A stretch of 39,615 nucleotides of DNA from NCBI GenBank assembly GCA_947453155.1, contig CANGFE010000020.1, positions 1 through 39,615 on the forward strand, read 5' to 3'. The notes below the pieces were generated by a model. The model was not told the origin of the DNA and made no database searches. It saw only the letters and a list, made by a program, of their open reading frames with translations. Source of the DNA: Beijerinckiaceae bacterium (lineage in GTDB: Bacteria; Pseudomonadota; Alphaproteobacteria; Rhizobiales; Beijerinckiaceae). The first letter of the stretch is position 1; every line of letters starts with the position of its first letter. The position numbers were made by a program, and so were the translations under genes. Positions 6,983 through 14,235 of the stretch are shown piece by piece.

Positions 6983-7366
6983 ATGCCGCAAAAATACGAT
7001 GCCTTTGTTCCCGGTAGCCATGAGATAGAAGGCTTTGGCGCGGGTGGCTTTCGCTTTGCGGATATGTCGCATCGTGGCTCTATCCTCGTCTTGCCGTCTG
7101 GCATTTCCGCTTGGGATGTCACCACGCCTACGCAGATCACGCCGCAATCTTTGCAGCCTGTTCTGGATGAGCCCAGAGGCACGATTGAATTGCTGCTTAT
7201 TGGAACGGGTGAGTTTCTCTTGCCCATCCGGCAAGATGTGCGCGCAGCTTTGAAAGAGGCCGGCATTGGCGTTGATCCGATGGCCACCGCTCATGCCATT
7301 GCCACTTACAATATTCTCGTGACCGAGAAGCGCCGTGTCGCGGCAGCCCTTCTGGCTGTGTCATGA
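6983..7366 (+). CDS. Mth938 domain (DUF498, NDUFAF3-like) protein
   Basis: A 127-residue single-domain protein of the Mth938/DUF498 family, which includes the mitochondrial complex I assembly factor NDUFAF3. The motif LLIGTGEFLLPI is the characteristic GTG segment, followed by LKEAGIGVDPMATAHAIATYN and NILVTEKRRVAAALL. The start at 6983 is preceded by GGTGAGAG with 8-base spacing; an ATG at 6962 and a TTG at 6941 lie inside the palindromic repeat and are unlikely. The gene overlaps the next one by ATGA, so the two are translationally coupled. A soluble, cytoplasmic protein; its role in bacterial respiratory complex I is an inference. Confidence 0.88.
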   Translation: MPQKYDAFVPGSHEIEGFGAGGFRFADMSHRGSILVLPSGISAWDVTTPTQITPQSLQPVLDEPRGTIELLLIGTGEFLLPIRQDVRAALKEAGIGVDPMATAHAIATYNILVTEKRRVAAALLAVS

Positions 7367-8211
7367 CTGCGCTGACTGCTGATCAACAAGCCTGCGCTGA
7401 ACTTTTGCAGCGCGACGATCCCGATCGCTATTACGCCTGTCTGTTTGCACCCGAAGACAAGCGCGGCGCTTTATTCGCGCTTTATGCTTTCAGTCTCGAA
7501 TTGGCGCGGATTCGTGAAATCGTTTCAGAGCCCATGCTCGGCGAAATTCGACTTCAGTGGTGGCGTGATGCGCTGGCAGGCGCGGGGCATGGCGAGGTGA
7601 GTGCCAATCCTGTGGCGGCGGCTTTGCTTGAGACGGTGCAAAAATACAATTTGCCTATCCAAGCTCTGCGCGCTCTGATCGAAGGCCGCACTTTTGATCT
7701 CTATGATGATCCCATGCTGACGCGCGTCGATCTTGAAGGTTATTGCGGCGAAACCTGTTCGTCGCTGATCCGCTTGGCGTCTCTTGTGCTGGCTGACGGG
7801 CGTGATCCGGGTGGGGCAGAGGCTTGCGGCCATGCGGGTGTGGCTTTTGCGCTGATAGGTTTGTTGCGCGCTTTGCCATGGCATGCGGCGCGCGGACAAT
7901 TATATCTGCCGGCAGATGTTTTGGCGCAGCATCAGGTGACGCGCGAGCAGATCCTGTCGGGGCAGGTGACGCCCGGCGTGGTGGCGGTGCTTACCGAGTT
8001 GCGCGTTCTCGCACGCCATCATTTTGAACGCGCCATGGCGGGCGCTGGGGAGATGGACGAAAGTGCGCGCGCCGCACTCATGCCGCTTGCTGTCGTGCCG
8101 CTTTATCTGAAGCGCATGGAGGCGGGCGGATATGAACCTTTCCGCACGCTGATCAGCGCACCGCTGTGGCGGCGTTTGCTCGCCATGTGGATTTTCTCGC
8201 GAAAACTCTAG
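7363..8211 (+). CDS. Squalene/phytoene synthase-fold protein, NDUFAF6-like
   Basis: A 282-residue protein with the all-helical trans-isoprenyl synthase fold but without the catalytic aspartate pairs. Where active enzymes read DDxxD it has YAFSLELARIREIV (41-54), and where the second DxxED is expected it has LLRALPWHAARGQLYLP (167-183). GEIRLQWWRDAL (60-71) and the LR-PWH-R-LYLP pattern strongly resemble human NDUFAF6, a complex I assembly factor, more than HpnC/HpnD or CrtB. I therefore read it as a non-catalytic assembly factor, not a carotenoid or hopanoid enzyme. ATGA overlap with the NDUFAF3-like gene supports a joint role. Confidence 0.85.
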   Translation: MTALTADQQACAELLQRDDPDRYYACLFAPEDKRGALFALYAFSLELARIREIVSEPMLGEIRLQWWRDALAGAGHGEVSANPVAAALLETVQKYNLPIQALRALIEGRTFDLYDDPMLTRVDLEGYCGETCSSLIRLASLVLADGRDPGGAEACGHAGVAFALIGLLRALPWHAARGQLYLPADVLAQHQVTREQILSGQVTPGVVAVLTELRVLARHHFERAMAGAGEMDESARAALMPLAVVPLYLKRMEAGGYEPFRTLISAPLWRRLLAMWIFSRKL

Positions 8212-8213
8212 TC

Positions 8214-8315
8214 CGTCATTGCGAGGAGCGAAGCGACGCGGCAATCCATAGCATTCATGCTCTGAGATTGGTGCTATGGATTGCCACGTCGGCCTACGGC
8301 CTCCTCGCAAAGACG
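8214..8315. repeat. Dispersed palindromic repeat, copy 3
   Basis: 102-bp palindrome with ends CGTCATTGCGAG (8214-8225) and CTCGCAAAGACG (8304-8315) and an inner pair GCAATCCATAGCA / TGCTATGGATTGC. It starts 2 bp after the NDUFAF6-like stop codon, so it would fold at the mRNA 3' end. Confidence 0.85.
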
Positions 8316-9877: not shown

Positions 9878-9920
9878 GCGCGCGACCATAGGGATGAGGC
9901 TTGGCGCAGGCAACAGCGCT

Positions 9921-10000
9921 CAAAAGAAAACGCCCGCCGGGGGAGGAACCGGCGGGCGTTTCTGAAACAGGGTCAGCAGGGAGGGGGGAGAGCTGACCCC
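9921..10000 (-). ncRNA. Candidate 3'-UTR sRNA with two anti-SD stem-loops (CcsR/cuckoo-like)
   Basis: Immediately after the DUF1127 stop, the minus strand carries two stem-loops. The first (plus 9970-9999) has an 8-bp stem GGGTCAGC/GCTGACCC and a 14-base pyrimidine loop containing CCCCCCUCCC; the second is the terminator with loop UUCCUCCC. Rhodobacter CcsR RNAs and the related cuckoo RNA family are pairs of such hairpins with CCUCC-type loops transcribed with a DUF1127 gene. The arrangement here matches in layout and loop chemistry. Whether a separate small RNA is processed out is inference. Confidence 0.65.
9922..9960 (-). terminator. Terminator of the DUF1127 transcript, with CCUCC loop
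   Basis: On the minus strand a perfect 12-bp stem (AACGCCCGCCGG with CCGGCGGGCGTT, plus positions 9949-9960 and 9929-9940) closes a loop reading UUCCUCCC, followed by a U-rich tail (UUUUCUUUUG). The loop contains CCUCC, complementary to the Shine-Dalgarno core. Confidence 0.85.
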
Positions 10001-10011
10001 TAAATCGGGAC

Positions 10012-10173
10012 TTAGAGGCCAGCCGAGCGGCGGGCGATCTCGTCGATTTCCCAACGAGCGATGCCGAGGTCGGCGAGTTCGCGGTCGTTGAGGCTGTAGA
10101 GTTCCCGCAGCGAAGTGCGGTAACGGCGCCAAGCATTCAGCTTGGCAGAAATGAACTTGATCGTCTGGGTCAT
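10012..10173 (-). CDS. DUF1127 family small basic protein
   Basis: A 53-residue arginine-rich protein: MTQTIKFISAKLNAWRRYR, then TSLRELYSLNDRELADLGIA, then RWEIDEIARRSAGL. The pattern L--L-DRELAD-G- followed by I-RW-ID- defines DUF1127 (YjiS-like) proteins. In Rhodobacter sphaeroides the DUF1127 protein CcaF1 binds RNA and affects maturation of the linked CcsR sRNAs. Here the gene sits between a CCUCC-loop hairpin in its 5' leader and two more in its 3' region, so an RNA-binding role is likely. No strong ribosome site is visible (AAAGAG about 8 bases upstream). Confidence 0.9.
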   Translation of the reverse strand: MTQTIKFISAKLNAWRRYRTSLRELYSLNDRELADLGIARWEIDEIARRSAGL

Positions 10174-10190
10174 CACATGGCTCTTTTGCG

Positions 10191-10210
10191 GGGGCGGGGA
10201 GGAACGCCCC
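10191..10210 (-). promoter_or_regulatory. 5'-leader hairpin with UUCCUCCC loop upstream of DUF1127
   Basis: On the minus strand GGGGCG and CGCCCC (plus 10205-10210 and 10191-10196) form a 6-bp GC stem around the loop UUCCUCCC, the same 8-base loop as the terminator hairpin at 9929-9960. It ends 17 bases before the DUF1127 ATG, so it would lie in the mRNA leader. Confidence 0.55.
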
Positions 10211-10271
10211 TCTGATGCAATGCAACATAGAGAGAGTCGGGCGGCTGAGGCAGGGGCTTAGCTGCACCCCA

Positions 10272-10292
10272 GATATGCAAAATTAGCATATC
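10272..10292. promoter_or_regulatory. Perfect inverted repeat, possible operator
   Basis: GATATGC (10272-10278) and GCATATC (10286-10292) flank the AT-rich spacer AAAATTA, about 100 bp upstream of the DUF1127 start. A dyad of this size in an AT-rich patch is typical of a dimeric regulator site. The regulator is unknown. Confidence 0.4.
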
Positions 10293-10350: not shown

Positions 10351-10431
10351 CCAAATAGCGCGATTCATGGCGGATCGAGCCTGCAATTTACGCATTGCTA
10401 ACTATTGTCGCAGGGCAAGGGGACGCACCCC

Positions 10432-10489: not shown

Positions 10490-10978
10490 TTAGTCTTCCT
10501 TGAAGCCGTAATCCGGTATGCCCTGTTCATTGCCGTAATATTTGAACGGCAGGAATTTGCCCGACATGGTGATTTTGACGCGGTCGCCCTTGGGGTTGGC
10601 TTCGCGCTCGAAATCCATATTGAAGTCGATGGCCGACATAATGCCATCGCCATATTCCTCCTCAATGAGCTGCTTCCAAGCGGGGCCGTTGACCAGCACC
10701 AGCTCGTAGAAACGATAGATGAGGGGGTCGGTCGGGGGCATGGTCGTGCCCGCGCCGCGCATCGGCACTTCATTGAGCATGCGCTCCTCGGCTTGCGACA
10801 GCCCAAACAGTTTTGCGGCCTTGGCAGCGAGCGGCTTGACGAGCTTGTGGTTGCCCAGAATGGCGCCGACGATCAGGACGGGGGAGACACCACCGATTTC
10901 GCCGCAAATATAAGACCAGCTCCAGCCCTTCTCGCGCTTAATGTCGAGCAGCTTTTCGGTGAGTTGTTCGCGCTTCAT
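10490..10978 (-). CDS. cynS: Cyanate hydratase (cyanase)
   Basis: A 162-residue cyanase, which converts cyanate and bicarbonate to ammonia and carbon dioxide. The N-terminal half is a helical XRE-like domain; the C-terminal half carries the catalytic triad R89 and E92 (in YRFYELVLV) and S115 (in GDGIMSAIDF), with the spacing of E. coli R96, E99 and S122. The start at 10978 has GAAGGAGAA just upstream. It is the last gene of cynA-B-D-S, 20 bp after the ATPase gene, so the transporter very likely carries cyanate. No carbonic anhydrase gene (cynT) is nearby. Confidence 0.97.
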   Translation of the reverse strand: MKREQLTEKLLDIKREKGWSWSYICGEIGGVSPVLIVGAILGNHKLVKPLAAKAAKLFGLSQAEERMLNEVPMRGAGTTMPPTDPLIYRFYELVLVNGPAWKQLIEEEYGDGIMSAIDFNMDFEREANPKGDRVKITMSGKFLPFKYYGNEQGIPDYGFKED

Positions 10979-10998
10979 ATTCTTCTCCTTCTTGAGTG

Positions 10999-11895
10999 TT
11001 ACGCAGCCGATAAATCGGCTTTGGGGGCGAGGGCCGCTGTGGGACGCACAATCGGCGGATGGCGTTTGGAATAATCAGCCGGGATTTCGTCTTTAAACGA
11101 TTTGGACCGCGAGACCAGAAAATCGATCAGATGATTTCGCAAAGCGTAATAATCGGGCTGCTTGTGCAGATCGATGCGGCCGCGATTGCGGGGCAGGGGA
11201 TTTTCGACCACTTCCGCCACCATGGCGCCCGGACCATTGGTCATGAGCACGATGCGGTCGGCGAGATAAATGGCTTCATCGACATCATGGGTGATCATGA
11301 AAGCGGTTTGTCCGGTCTCCAGACAAATGCGGCGCACTTCATCCTGCAATGTGCCGCGTGTCAGCGCATCGAGCGCCGAGAAGGGCTCATCCATCAAGAG
11401 AATCTTGGGCTCGATGGAGAGCGCGCGCGCAATGCCCACACGCTGTTTCATGCCACCTGAGAGTTCTGCTGGCTTTTTGAGTTCGGACCCTTTCAAGCCC
11501 ACTTTGTCAATAAAGCGCATCGCTTGTTCGCGCACTTGGTCCGCACTCCATTCGGGCCATTTGGATGAAATCGCGAAAGACACATTGCCGAGCACGGTTC
11601 GCCAGGGAAGAAGCGCGTGGCTTTGGAAAATCACCGCGCGATCTAGTGAGGGGCCCTCAATGGCTTTGCCATCAACAACGGCAACACCTTCGTCCGGCAA
11701 TTCGAGGCCGGCCAGAATGTTGAGCACTGTTGTCTTGCCGCAGCCGGAATGGCCGATGATGCAGGAAAATTCGCCGCGGTTCATCGAAAACCAAAGGTCG
11801 TCGAAAATGGTGGTCTCACCACCGCCAGCCTTCGGATAGCGCCTGGCAATGCCTTCAATGGAGATGAAACGGTCTTGATTGTTGTAGAGCGTCAT
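10999..11895 (-). CDS. cynD: Cyanate ABC transporter ATPase (NrtD/CynD/SsuB-like)
   Basis: A 298-residue ATPase of the nitrate/sulfonate/taurine class. Walker A is GHSGCGKT (48-55), signature LSGGMKQ (145-151), Walker B ILLMDE (165-170), switch histidine H203 in MITHDVDE. The start is the ATG of [10 protein letters not shown] at 11895, 5 bp after the permease stop; an upstream in-frame extension would overlap the permease. The family as a whole does not tell nitrate from cyanate, but the linked cynS argues for cyanate. Confidence 0.88.
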
Positions 11896-11900
11896 GGCGA

Positions 11901-12740
11901 TCAATCCGGATAGGTGACAAGACGCGCAACACGCGCGAGGGCTTGGTCGAGCAACATGCCCACAAGTCCGATGACGAGAATGGAAATAATGACATTGACG
12001 ATGGAGAGATTGTTCCATTCGTTCCAGACGAAATAGCCAATGCCTGTGCCGCCCACGAGCATTTCAGCTGCCACGATGACAAGCCAAGCAATGCCAATCG
12101 AAATGCGCATGCCGGTCAGAATGGTTGGCGCTGCAGCCGGCAGAATGACGGTGAAAGCTTTGCGTAAGGGGCGCACTTCCAACGTGCGTGCGACATTGAG
12201 CCATTCTTTGCGCACTGCTGCGACACCAAAGGCCGTGTTGATCATCATCGGCCAGAGCGAGCAGATGAAGATCACGAAGATTGCCGAGATGGAGGAATCT
12301 TTGATCGTGTAGAGCGCGAGCGGCATCCAAGCGAGCGGTGAGATCGGCTTCATCACTTGAATGAAAGGATTGAGCGCCTTGCTCATCAGAGGCGACATGC
12401 CGATGACAAAGCCCGTGGGGATCGCCACGCAAACAGCGATGCAATAGCCCAGCATCACGCGGCCAATGGAGAAAGCGAGCTGAATGCCCAGCCCCTTGTC
12501 ATTGGGGCCGCGATCATAAAAGGGGTTTTTCAGATGTTCCCAGATTTTCGCCGCCACATCGAAGGGGCCGGGCATTGCCGATTTGCCCGTCGTCGCGGTG
12601 AGGCCCATCAGCTTGGCATATTCCGGATCCATGGCAGCGACAGAAGCCGTTTGGCGGGTCGCAATGTGCCAGGCCGCAATGAACAAAGCGAAGATGACAA
12701 AAGAGAGGACGCTGGCGCGCAGCGTCAGATTCGATGACAT
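11901..12740 (-). CDS. cynB: Cyanate ABC transporter permease (NrtB/CynB-like)
   Basis: An inner-membrane permease of 279 residues from the ATG at 12740 (a GTG at 12767 would add 9). An N-terminal helix ([19 protein letters not shown]) is followed by the BPD transporter domain with helices including [19 protein letters not shown]. The EAA loop is seen at [20 protein letters not shown]. It follows cynA after a 90-bp palindromic repeat and precedes cynD by 5 bp. Confidence 0.88.
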
Positions 12741-12767
12741 GTTGGAAGCCCTGTTTTTATTTTTCAC

Positions 12768-12857
12768 CGTCGTTGCGAGGAGGCCGGAGGCCGACGAGGC
12801 AATCCAGAGGCCTCACATGAGGCTTGTCTGGATTGCTTCGCTTTGCTCGCAATGACG
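12768..12857. repeat. Dispersed palindromic repeat, copy 5, inside the cyn operon
   Basis: A 90-bp palindrome: ends CGTCGTTGCGAG (12768-12779) and CTCGCAATGACG (12846-12857), inner arms GCAATCCAGA and TCTGGATTGC, and a central GCCTC/GAGGC. It fills the gap between the cynA stop (12862) and the cynB start, so the polycistronic mRNA would carry a large hairpin here. Confidence 0.9.
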
Positions 12858-12861
12858 AGGA

Positions 12862-14235
12862 TTAGGTCCGCTTGATCGCGAAGGAGGCGATGTAATCGTC
12901 CGGCTTTGTCGGATCGAATGTCTTGCCCATGATCGAGAACGTTTTGGTCGTCGAGGCAGGCGGTGTGAGGCCGACTTCCTTCATGAACTTGGTCGTGTCG
13001 GTTGCCAGATACACCTGCTTGGCGATTTTCTGATAATCGACATCGCCCTTGATCTGACCCCAACGCTTCATCTGCGAGAGAATCCAGACAGCGAAGCTTT
13101 CATAGGGGAAGGGATCGAAATCGATACGATCGGCCGCCTTCACGACATTGCCAAGACCATCCGCAAAAGTCCCCGTCAACACTTGCTCGACGACGGTCAC
13201 TGGCTGGTTGAGATAATTGGCAGGCGCAATGGCTTCTGCAATTTCCTTGCGGTTTTCAGCCTTGGTTGCATAAGCGGTCGCATCAATGATCGCCTTCAGC
13301 AAAGCTGCATAGGAATTCGGATTTGTTTTGACGAATTCTTGGCTAGCAGCAAAGCCGCAGCAGGGATGACGATCCCAGATCTGCTTCGACAGCATGTGGA
13401 TGAAGCCGACGCCATCATAGACCGCACGCTGGTTCACCGGATCGGGTGCCAAGAAGCCATCGATATTATCGGCGCGCAGATTGGCGACCATTTCCGGTGG
13501 CGGCACTGCGCGGATTTGCACATCCGTATCAGGGTCGATGCCGTTTTCAGCCAGATAATAGCGCAAGAGATAATTGTGCATCGAATAATCGAAGGGCACG
13601 GCAAGCTTGAAGCCTTTCCATTGCTTCGGATCGCGCTTGTCCTTGTGCTTCATGGCCAGCGTAATGGCTTGGCCATTGATATTTTCAACGGCCGGCATTG
13701 TGTAGGGAATGGCGGTTGCACCCACACCCATGGTGATGGCGAGCGGCATCGGCGAGAGCATATGCGCTGCATCATATTCTTTGTTAATGGTCTTATCGCG
13801 AATGACCGCCCAACCAGCGGCTTTGTTCACTTCCACATTGAGGCCGTGCTTGGAATAGAAGCCGAGCGGTGCCGCCATAATGATGGGTGTGGCGCACGTG
13901 ATCGGAATAAAGCCGACTTTGAGATCCTTCTTTTCAAGGCTACCGGCTTGCGCAAAAACTTCTGTCGCTGTTGCGAGCGGGAAGAACGAGGAGAGGGCGG
14001 CCGCGGCGGTCGAGGCACCAAGCTTTTGCAGGAAAGCACGACGATGCGCATCGACGGGGAAGATCTGGCGCATCACGGTTTCAGCAACGAGATTTTCGTA
14101 AGTCGCTTCCGTGTTCTTGGCGAGGTCTGCTGATTGCGCGCGCAAGGCCGCATCATGTTCGCCCTGCGATGTATGCTGGCCGCAGGTGCAGCCGCGCGAG
14201 AGCCGATTGCGATAATCGAAAGGATTCTTGAACAT
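12862..14235 (-). CDS. cynA: Cyanate/nitrate-type ABC substrate-binding protein (CmpA/NrtA family)
   Basis: A 457-residue binding protein of the NrtA/CmpA/CynA family; KVGFIPITCATPIIMAAPLG begins the binding domain near residue 106. A twin-arginine signal appears at HRRAFLQKLG (64-73) followed by a hydrophobic stretch and cleavage near AQA (94-96), so export by Tat is likely. Unusually, 62 residues precede it, including a C-x-C-x-x-H motif (C16, C18, H21) in GCTCGQHTSQGEHD. The ATG at 14235 has GGCGGAGG five bases upstream, so the extension is real. A sigma-54 promoter lies 40 bp upstream. Confidence 0.88.
   Translation of the reverse strand: MFKNPFDYRNRLSRGCTCGQHTSQGEHDAALRAQSADLAKNTEATYENLVAETVMRQIFPVDAHRRAFLQKLGASTAAAALSSFFPLATATEVFAQAGSLEKKDLKVGFIPITCATPIIMAAPLGFYSKHGLNVEVNKAAGWAVIRDKTINKEYDAAHMLSPMPLAITMGVGATAIPYTMPAVENINGQAITLAMKHKDKRDPKQWKGFKLAVPFDYSMHNYLLRYYLAENGIDPDTDVQIRAVPPPEMVANLRADNIDGFLAPDPVNQRAVYDGVGFIHMLSKQIWDRHPCCGFAASQEFVKTNPNSYAALLKAIIDATAYATKAENRKEIAEAIAPANYLNQPVTVVEQVLTGTFADGLGNVVKAADRIDFDPFPYESFAVWILSQMKRWGQIKGDVDYQKIAKQVYLATDTTKFMKEVGLTPPASTTKTFSIMGKTFDPTKPDDYIASFAIKRT

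Follow-up and report, generated by a model that had tools for sequence, protein, structure and literature searches.

The minus strand of the window, by which we mean the whole stretch of 39,615 nucleotides that was analysed, holds at positions 10216 to 9921 what we read, with a probability of roughly 0.55, as a dual-function transcript of the DUF1127-cuckoo kind that has a LysR-type promoter, receptor mRNAs as its targets and, in its leader, a third seed acting in trans. According to this reading, one short transcript made from an LsrB/VtlR-like promoter would encode a small arginine-rich DUF1127 protein and would end in a 3' UTR containing an RNA of the cuckoo/ar14 type with two hairpins, which RNase E probably cuts free, as happens with CcsR; by pairing with the Shine-Dalgarno sequences of other mRNAs, the C-rich loops would lower their translation, the genes likeliest to be silenced being those for the receptors of tripartite and ABC transporters. 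In the ancestor of the clade, the hairpin at the 5' end would have gained the same loop and would now provide a third seed on the full-length mRNA, giving a message that resembles the three-hairpin RNA NfeR1 with an open reading frame set between seeds one and two. The anatomy of the locus, its conservation and covariation, the match of its promoter and its complementarity to ribosome sites can be read from the genomes themselves, and it is from these that we infer the transcript, its processing, the binding of LsrB, the silencing of targets and the action of the leader loop in trans, this last being the least secure step.

The centre of the locus is an open reading frame of 53 codons plus stop at 10012-10173 on the minus strand (ATG at 10173, TAA at 10014-10012), which matches PF06568 with 43.6 bits against a Pfam cut-off of 23.3 and thereby bears out the DUF1127 gene of the original prediction. 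Ahead of it stands a leader hairpin of 6 bp at 10191-10210, whose arms GGGGCG and CGCCCC close the loop UUCCUCCC (10204-10197); behind it, on the same strand, come hairpin b at 9970-9999, with the loop UCUCCCCCCUCCCU, and hairpin c at 9927-9962, an intrinsic terminator whose stem (9962-9927) is followed by UUUUCUUUU, with a U-tail at about 9930-9921, and whose loop is once more UUCCUCCC, identical to that of the leader as had been claimed. A fold of the minus strand of 9915-10215 returned all three hairpins with a z-score of -5.5, none of 100 shuffles being equally stable, and for the predicted transcript (10216-9921) the ensemble gave the three loops a mean probability of 1.00 of being unpaired, so that the predicted leader hairpin and two 3' hairpins, with their C-rich segments in loops and not in pairs, withstood the check. 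The encoded proteins of the window's genome (G000) and of its relative G032 are identical, and since the seven codon changes that separate the two genes are all synonymous, with no non-synonymous change, the protein is, as far as codons can tell, still under selection. No second DUF1127 match was found in the window's genome, the assembly of which is 83.6% complete.

DUF1127 was found in 44 of 51 genomes of the genus, and the survey of the genus covers 38 loci in full and four added later, the partial matches in G160, which is a split DUF1127 locus, and in G017 being excluded from the leader count. TrmFO lies downstream of DUF1127 in 35 of the 38 loci, no match having been obtained in L016, L029 and L031; in L068 (G167) the TrmFO match starts 921 nt past the DUF1127 stop, compared with 126-295 nt in the other 34, a distance from which it seems that sequence was inserted there behind the terminator. 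The cyanate operon that lies upstream in the window (10490-14235, minus; cyanase, ABC ATPase, permease and NMT1_2 receptor) was rejected as a part of the unit, cynS being matched in just four of the 38 loci, although these span at most 1.5 kb upstream and some of them less. Two further features of the neighbourhood may be recorded, namely an inverted repeat with 20-nt arms at 8234-8291, between a squalene/phytoene synthase gene (7363-8211, plus) and trmFO, that looks like a palindromic repeat element, and the string AUGUGAUG at 10171-10178 (minus), a start-stop AUG-UGA that in G000 and G032 overlaps the start codon of DUF1127, is absent from the other clade leaders compared and may be due to chance.

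That the 3' half of the locus is of a known kind, with the DUF1127-cuckoo (CIN1) layout, is close to certain. The cuckoo RNA family and the CIN1 locus reportedly go back to Reinkensmeier and Giegerich in 2015. In the accessible parts of the published accounts, cuckoo/CIN1 consists of two to four hairpins, variable in the stem but conserved in the loop, that adjoin a short DUF1127 gene (PMC4504443, PMC3927594, PMC10253847). The locus agrees with this in having two 3' hairpins with C-rich loops on variable stems and a short DUF1127 gene directly upstream; among the genus loci stem b is hypervariable around its C-rich loop and stem c is nearly constant, and a hypervariable stem b around a C-rich loop is, in its sequence pattern, the cuckoo signature. 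It differs in its loops, which depart from CCUCCUCCC by being shortened or altered, and in the extra copy in the 5' leader: the exact 9-mer CCUCCUCCC occurs in none of the three loops, those on the 3' side reading UCUCCCCCCUCCCU and UUCCUCCC.

The position of the locus among the families of Rfam is less straightforward. At the gathering threshold Rfam returned nothing in the window, and in a permissive scan the nearest family was ar14 (RF02344, NfeR1), whose full model matches 9925-10031 on the minus strand with 57.4 bits (E 6e-10) and misses the gathering cut-off of 58.8 by 1.4 bits. Hairpins b and c align with hairpins 2 and 3 of the model, the first hairpin of which has here just a short stand-in without a C-rich loop; instead of the three adjacent anti-Shine-Dalgarno hairpins that characterize ar14, the locus carries its third loop in the leader, before the reading frame. 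CcsR1 (RF02791; 22.6 bits against a cut-off of 65.3), the 6C RNA (RF01066; 34.7 against 47) and ar7 were all rejected on score. The proposal of a CcsR/cuckoo layout therefore stands as regards the two 3' hairpins that follow DUF1127, whereas by covariance the relationship is closest to ar14, without any family reaching its cut-off, and not to CcsR1. The locus shares with NfeR1 of Sinorhizobium the C-rich anti-Shine-Dalgarno loops, the variable stems, the terminator as last hairpin, an LsrB-type palindrome at about -72 to -57 and receptor genes as targets (here predicted ones), but NfeR1 is a free three-hairpin sRNA and here hairpins b and c follow an open reading frame and the first loop sits in the mRNA leader. 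With CcsR1-4 and ccaF1 of Rhodobacter sphaeroides it has in common that a DUF1127 gene and, downstream of it, RNAs with C-rich loops share one transcript, CcaF1 having 71 residues compared with 53 here. CcsR is under RpoHI/RpoHII control.

The same 3' architecture recurs throughout the genus and, more loosely, beyond it. Matches to ar14 at E 0.01 were obtained in 44 of the 51 genus genomes, that of G019 not lying at a DUF1127 gene, and exceeded the cut-off in none of the 51; both 3' hairpins are found in all 38 loci when one mismatch is allowed and in three of the four added later when none is. In 99 genomes of the family there were 15 ar14 matches at 1e-4, none over the cut-off, and in 199 genomes of the order 33 at 1e-7, 28 of them over it; at 22 of the 29 best-per-genome order loci listed a DUF1127 match lies on the same strand, and at seven there is none. 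A strict finder applied to 27 wider loci, i.e. the 26 best-scoring family loci (73 of the 99 genomes having a match) and that of Aureimonas, returned two C-rich 3' hairpins in 11 and at least one in 16, and in Aureimonas leprariae an exact 24-base match to the terminator lies, likewise, behind a DUF1127 gene with C-rich hairpins. A free-standing NfeR1 was also sought in the genus, where six ar14 matches away from DUF1127 (second-place matches in G026, G158, G126, G157 and G162, and the sole match in G019) all lack the promoter palindrome and element described below. In two of the six, CCTCCTCCC occurs exactly but not within any hairpin detected, in two more there is a terminator whose loop is C-rich, that of G157 has three possible C-rich hairpins and one has none of these; because five of them hold either a C-rich hairpin loop or the exact CCTCCTCCC, it is possible that these are scattered cuckoo-like pieces. 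Some of the weak matches off DUF1127 (L105, L106, L107, L108, L110) lie just past a stop codon, and a Pfam query of one guessed reading frame in L125 gave no match.

The new part of the locus is the leader hairpin, which we regard as a clade-specific third seed and not as a general feature of such loci. Within a clade of 11 species (G000, G032, G012, G126, G167, G025, G002, G027, G026, G157 and G014) a leader hairpin with a C-rich loop is present in ten members and missing in G014, and outside it a qualifying hairpin (at least five pairs and a loop containing CUCCC or CCUCC) was found in one of the 31 other genus loci, a weak case with G-U pairs in G001 that is the sole one among the 27 first examined, the four later loci adding none. 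It is found in none of the 27 family-plus-Aureimonas loci and in none of 32 ar14 loci at which DUF1127 was matched, two sets that overlap in part. The conservation of the loops that had been expected in close relatives is thus real for ten of 11 clade members, but the third copy is not general and has been lost even from G014. That such a copy is new had likewise been surmised, and in the accessible portions of the literature, the 2015 cuckoo and 2021 CcaF1 papers aside, no description was found of a leader copy at DUF1127-cuckoo loci; nor, the 2021 CcaF1 paper aside, was any mention of one found for the CcsR/ccaF1 locus in the parts of the literature available.

Within the clade the stems read GGGGCG/CGCCCC, GGGACG/CGUCCC, GGGAUG/CGUCCC and GCGCCG/CGGCGC, with compensatory changes from G-C to C-G at pair 2 and from G-C to A-U and C-G at pair 4; all 59 scored stem pairs are standard, the count being based on arms delimited manually in the folds, because the MAFFT alignment had misplaced the 3' arms. 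Dinucleotide shuffles of the 43-nt leader of the window yield a qualifying hairpin in 2.0% of cases, and those of each of the ten carrier leaders in 0.4-9%, so that one leader alone is weak evidence and it is the conservation that counts. In a TrmFO tree of 35 rows the 11 clade members fall together with support 98/98 and the leader label needs two changes, a history readable as one gain and one loss (in G014); since the gain occurred once in one clade, the spread of the leader does not amount to independent, repeated evidence.

These shuffle frequencies also bear on the view that the leader hairpin is merely a 5'-terminal stabiliser against decay and that the sequence of its loop is accidental or just reflects a C-rich composition, a view with which it agrees, too, that about 6 nt would separate the predicted 5' end from the hairpin and that at many other genus loci the leader likewise forms a hairpin, with a loop of unrelated sequence. 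We consider it improbable in the face of a CUCCC C-rich loop that has been kept in ten of 11 members through replacement of the stem, as against one weak case in 31 elsewhere in the genus. An attenuator was rejected as well, there being no U-run after the leader hairpin. The retention of the loop while the stems change would equally suit a different role, close to the idea of the original prediction, in which the leader hairpin is bound by the DUF1127 protein or another reader of C-rich loops and exerts feedback by mimicry, the leader copying the loop of the 3' RNA that the protein helps to process. The identity of the leader and terminator loops in the window speaks for such mimicry, as does the finding, in the available text on Rhodobacter, that CcaF1 binds RNA and helps to mature CcsR from its own transcript (PMC10253847). 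The published evidence on RNA binding by DUF1127 proteins is mixed, however, and the portion of that record at hand includes a Salmonella protein, YjiS, with no RNA binding and Agrobacterium DUF1127 proteins that act on PhoR by protein contact (PMC12501420); moreover, no leader copy is present at the DUF1127-cuckoo loci that were examined outside the clade, bar one weak case, which means that it is no general requirement. On balance we take mimicry, too, to be unlikely, and prefer to see in the leader loop a third seed that would act in trans.

A leader loop with anti-Shine-Dalgarno sequence could in principle be directed at the message that carries it. The hairpin, its loop and the ribosome site of DUF1127 are so placed, in a stretch of about 40 nt, that an H-type pseudoknot could form, and in G026 and G157 an AGGA site is kept whose pairing with the 16S tail amounts to -5.5 and -5.8 kcal/mol. 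In the other nine of the 11 clade members this energy is just -2.1 to -3.3 kcal/mol, and among the 27 other genus loci three (G006, G007, G020) stand at -3.5 kcal/mol or weaker and the rest at -3.8 to -9.8, the start codon being a few bases off in six loci; because a search for the exact 16S 3'-end pattern was negative in all of seven genomes, the energies were computed with what we take to be the common tail. Since nine of 11 members have almost no Shine-Dalgarno sequence to mask, repression of DUF1127 in cis fits poorly and strikes us as very improbable; the loop is, besides, unpaired in the ensemble, although pseudoknots cannot appear in an ensemble of that type. The weakened sites look more like an avoidance of self-pairing, with which a weak Shine-Dalgarno sequence in eight of the ten leader carriers would fit, as a single event in one clade. 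We also entertain, tentatively and at less than even odds, a more specific form of the trans-acting reading, namely that of a split regulatory RNA, a single LsrB-type transcript whose silencing seeds flank the coding region, three being present on the intact mRNA and two on the 3' fragment, with TctC messages as main targets; a weak Shine-Dalgarno sequence of its own, as in nine of 11 members, would then keep the leader seed free for other messages and would uncouple the output of protein from that of RNA.

The promoter region connects the locus with a known regulon. A conserved element TATGTTGCATTGCA occupies 10216-10229 on the minus strand, with a likely -10 box TATGTT at 10229-10224, a TTGCATTGCA-type element at 10225-10216 and the predicted start at A10216; from -73 to -59 relative to this start (10275-10289, minus) lies an LsrB/VtlR-like palindrome, ATGC-N7-GCAT, of the LysR T-N11-A type. 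The core palindrome TGC-N7-GCA is present in 35 of the 38 genus loci, as compared with 2.1 of 38 in mononucleotide shuffles, and the element T[TA]GC[AG]NTGCA also in 35, as compared with 0.11 of 38. The palindrome precedes the TTGCATTGCA element by 62-64 nt in 27 loci (0.0 in shuffles) and by 43-44 nt in five, so that 31 have either spacing and seven neither; the spacing of 43 in L026, L029, L030 and L031 is about two helical turns off that of 62-64 nt. Among 26 family loci the palindrome is present in 15, the element in seven and the pair in just three. A second TGC-N7-GCA palindrome was noted at 10382-10394 (minus), some 106 nt upstream of the first and similarly placed in 14 of the 38 genus loci, including eight from the clade.

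The accessible text on NfeR1 of Sinorhizobium gives an LsrB site TGCA-N6-GCAT at -72 to -57, with binding demonstrated by gel shift (PMC10746234). The site of the window, TGCT-N6-GCAT, is one base off this published form, which is present exactly in several relatives, and because the palindrome matches the LsrB site of NfeR1 in both sequence and spacing, there is likely to be a LysR-type promoter whose start lies about 6 nt upstream of the leader hairpin; LsrB or a relative of it would, we infer, act at 10275-10289. NfeR1 and AbcR1 are both activated by LsrB according to the passages available (PMC10746234, PMC8844928), and in Brucella, where LsrB is called VtlR, three DUF1127 genes are under the control of this regulator, as stated in the accessible part of that source (PMC12595884). 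The locus resembles this LsrB/VtlR regulon of AbcR, NfeR1 and DUF1127 genes in the sequence and spacing of its putative site, but the two kinds of member, a DUF1127 gene and an anti-Shine-Dalgarno RNA, are here joined in one unit. A C-rich element in a DUF1127 leader is known, too, from duf1127_1 of Sinorhizobium meliloti, the leader of which, in the available portion of the report, is 279 nt long, has a translated uORF and is subject to Rho-type attenuation (PMC12218461); the leader predicted here, of about 43 nt, is too short for a comparable uORF.

As for the messages that the loops might reach, the pattern GGGAGGAA-N3-11-ATG occurs at 26 sites in the window's genome, compared with three for the reversed pattern, and at 17-48 sites compared with 0-7 in the ten other clade genomes. 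After removal of one antisense match to the leader hairpin, one duplicate and three reading frames of 22 codons or fewer, the 26 sites correspond to 21 genes, among which there are seven TctC matches and three further transport genes (one receptor-like protein, one TctA and one NMT1-type receptor). The 27 sites of G157 comprise 25 proteins of more than 60 residues, of which 12 match a TctC HMM built from 26 TctC proteins of the window's genome. This genome (2.79 Mb, incomplete) contains 65 TctC matches at E 0.001, 56 of them over the Pfam cut-off, and a GGGAGG Shine-Dalgarno sequence complementary to the loops precedes 34 of the 65 as against nine of 107 other reading frames (p 2e-10), the latter being a rough background in which, as in the TctC set, the start was chosen by best Shine-Dalgarno and which includes the TctC gene of the window itself. 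The share of sites beginning with G among NGGAGG sites is not higher in TctC (34/46 versus 9/16, p 0.22), so that the enrichment may just mean that Shine-Dalgarno sequences are strong there, and the comparison gives no support for TctC sites favouring the loop above the ribosome (p 0.22).

The available passages on NfeR1 and AbcR describe the known targets of the former and several of the latter as receptor genes silenced through anti-Shine-Dalgarno seeds (PMC8844928, PMC10746234), and on complementarity it is the mRNAs of transporter receptors that are the likeliest targets of the loops. The suggestion that the loops mask the ribosome sites of other mRNAs thus agrees with the action of NfeR1 and AbcR, as far as the accessible text of those two reports extends, and with the Shine-Dalgarno sequences of the TctC genes here.

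What the locus brings together are three things that the accessible literature treats apart or in pairs, i.e. DUF1127 proteins, hairpin RNAs with anti-Shine-Dalgarno loops and the LsrB/VtlR regulator. Should the leader loop prove active in trans, the mRNA would exert regulation from two places, its 5' end and its 3' UTR, and how many seeds there are would be determined by the proportion of full-length to processed RNA. The TctC receptors provide a concrete, testable set of targets in bacteria that possess many such genes, in which the locus, to judge from its sequence, may help to switch off genes for nutrient uptake.
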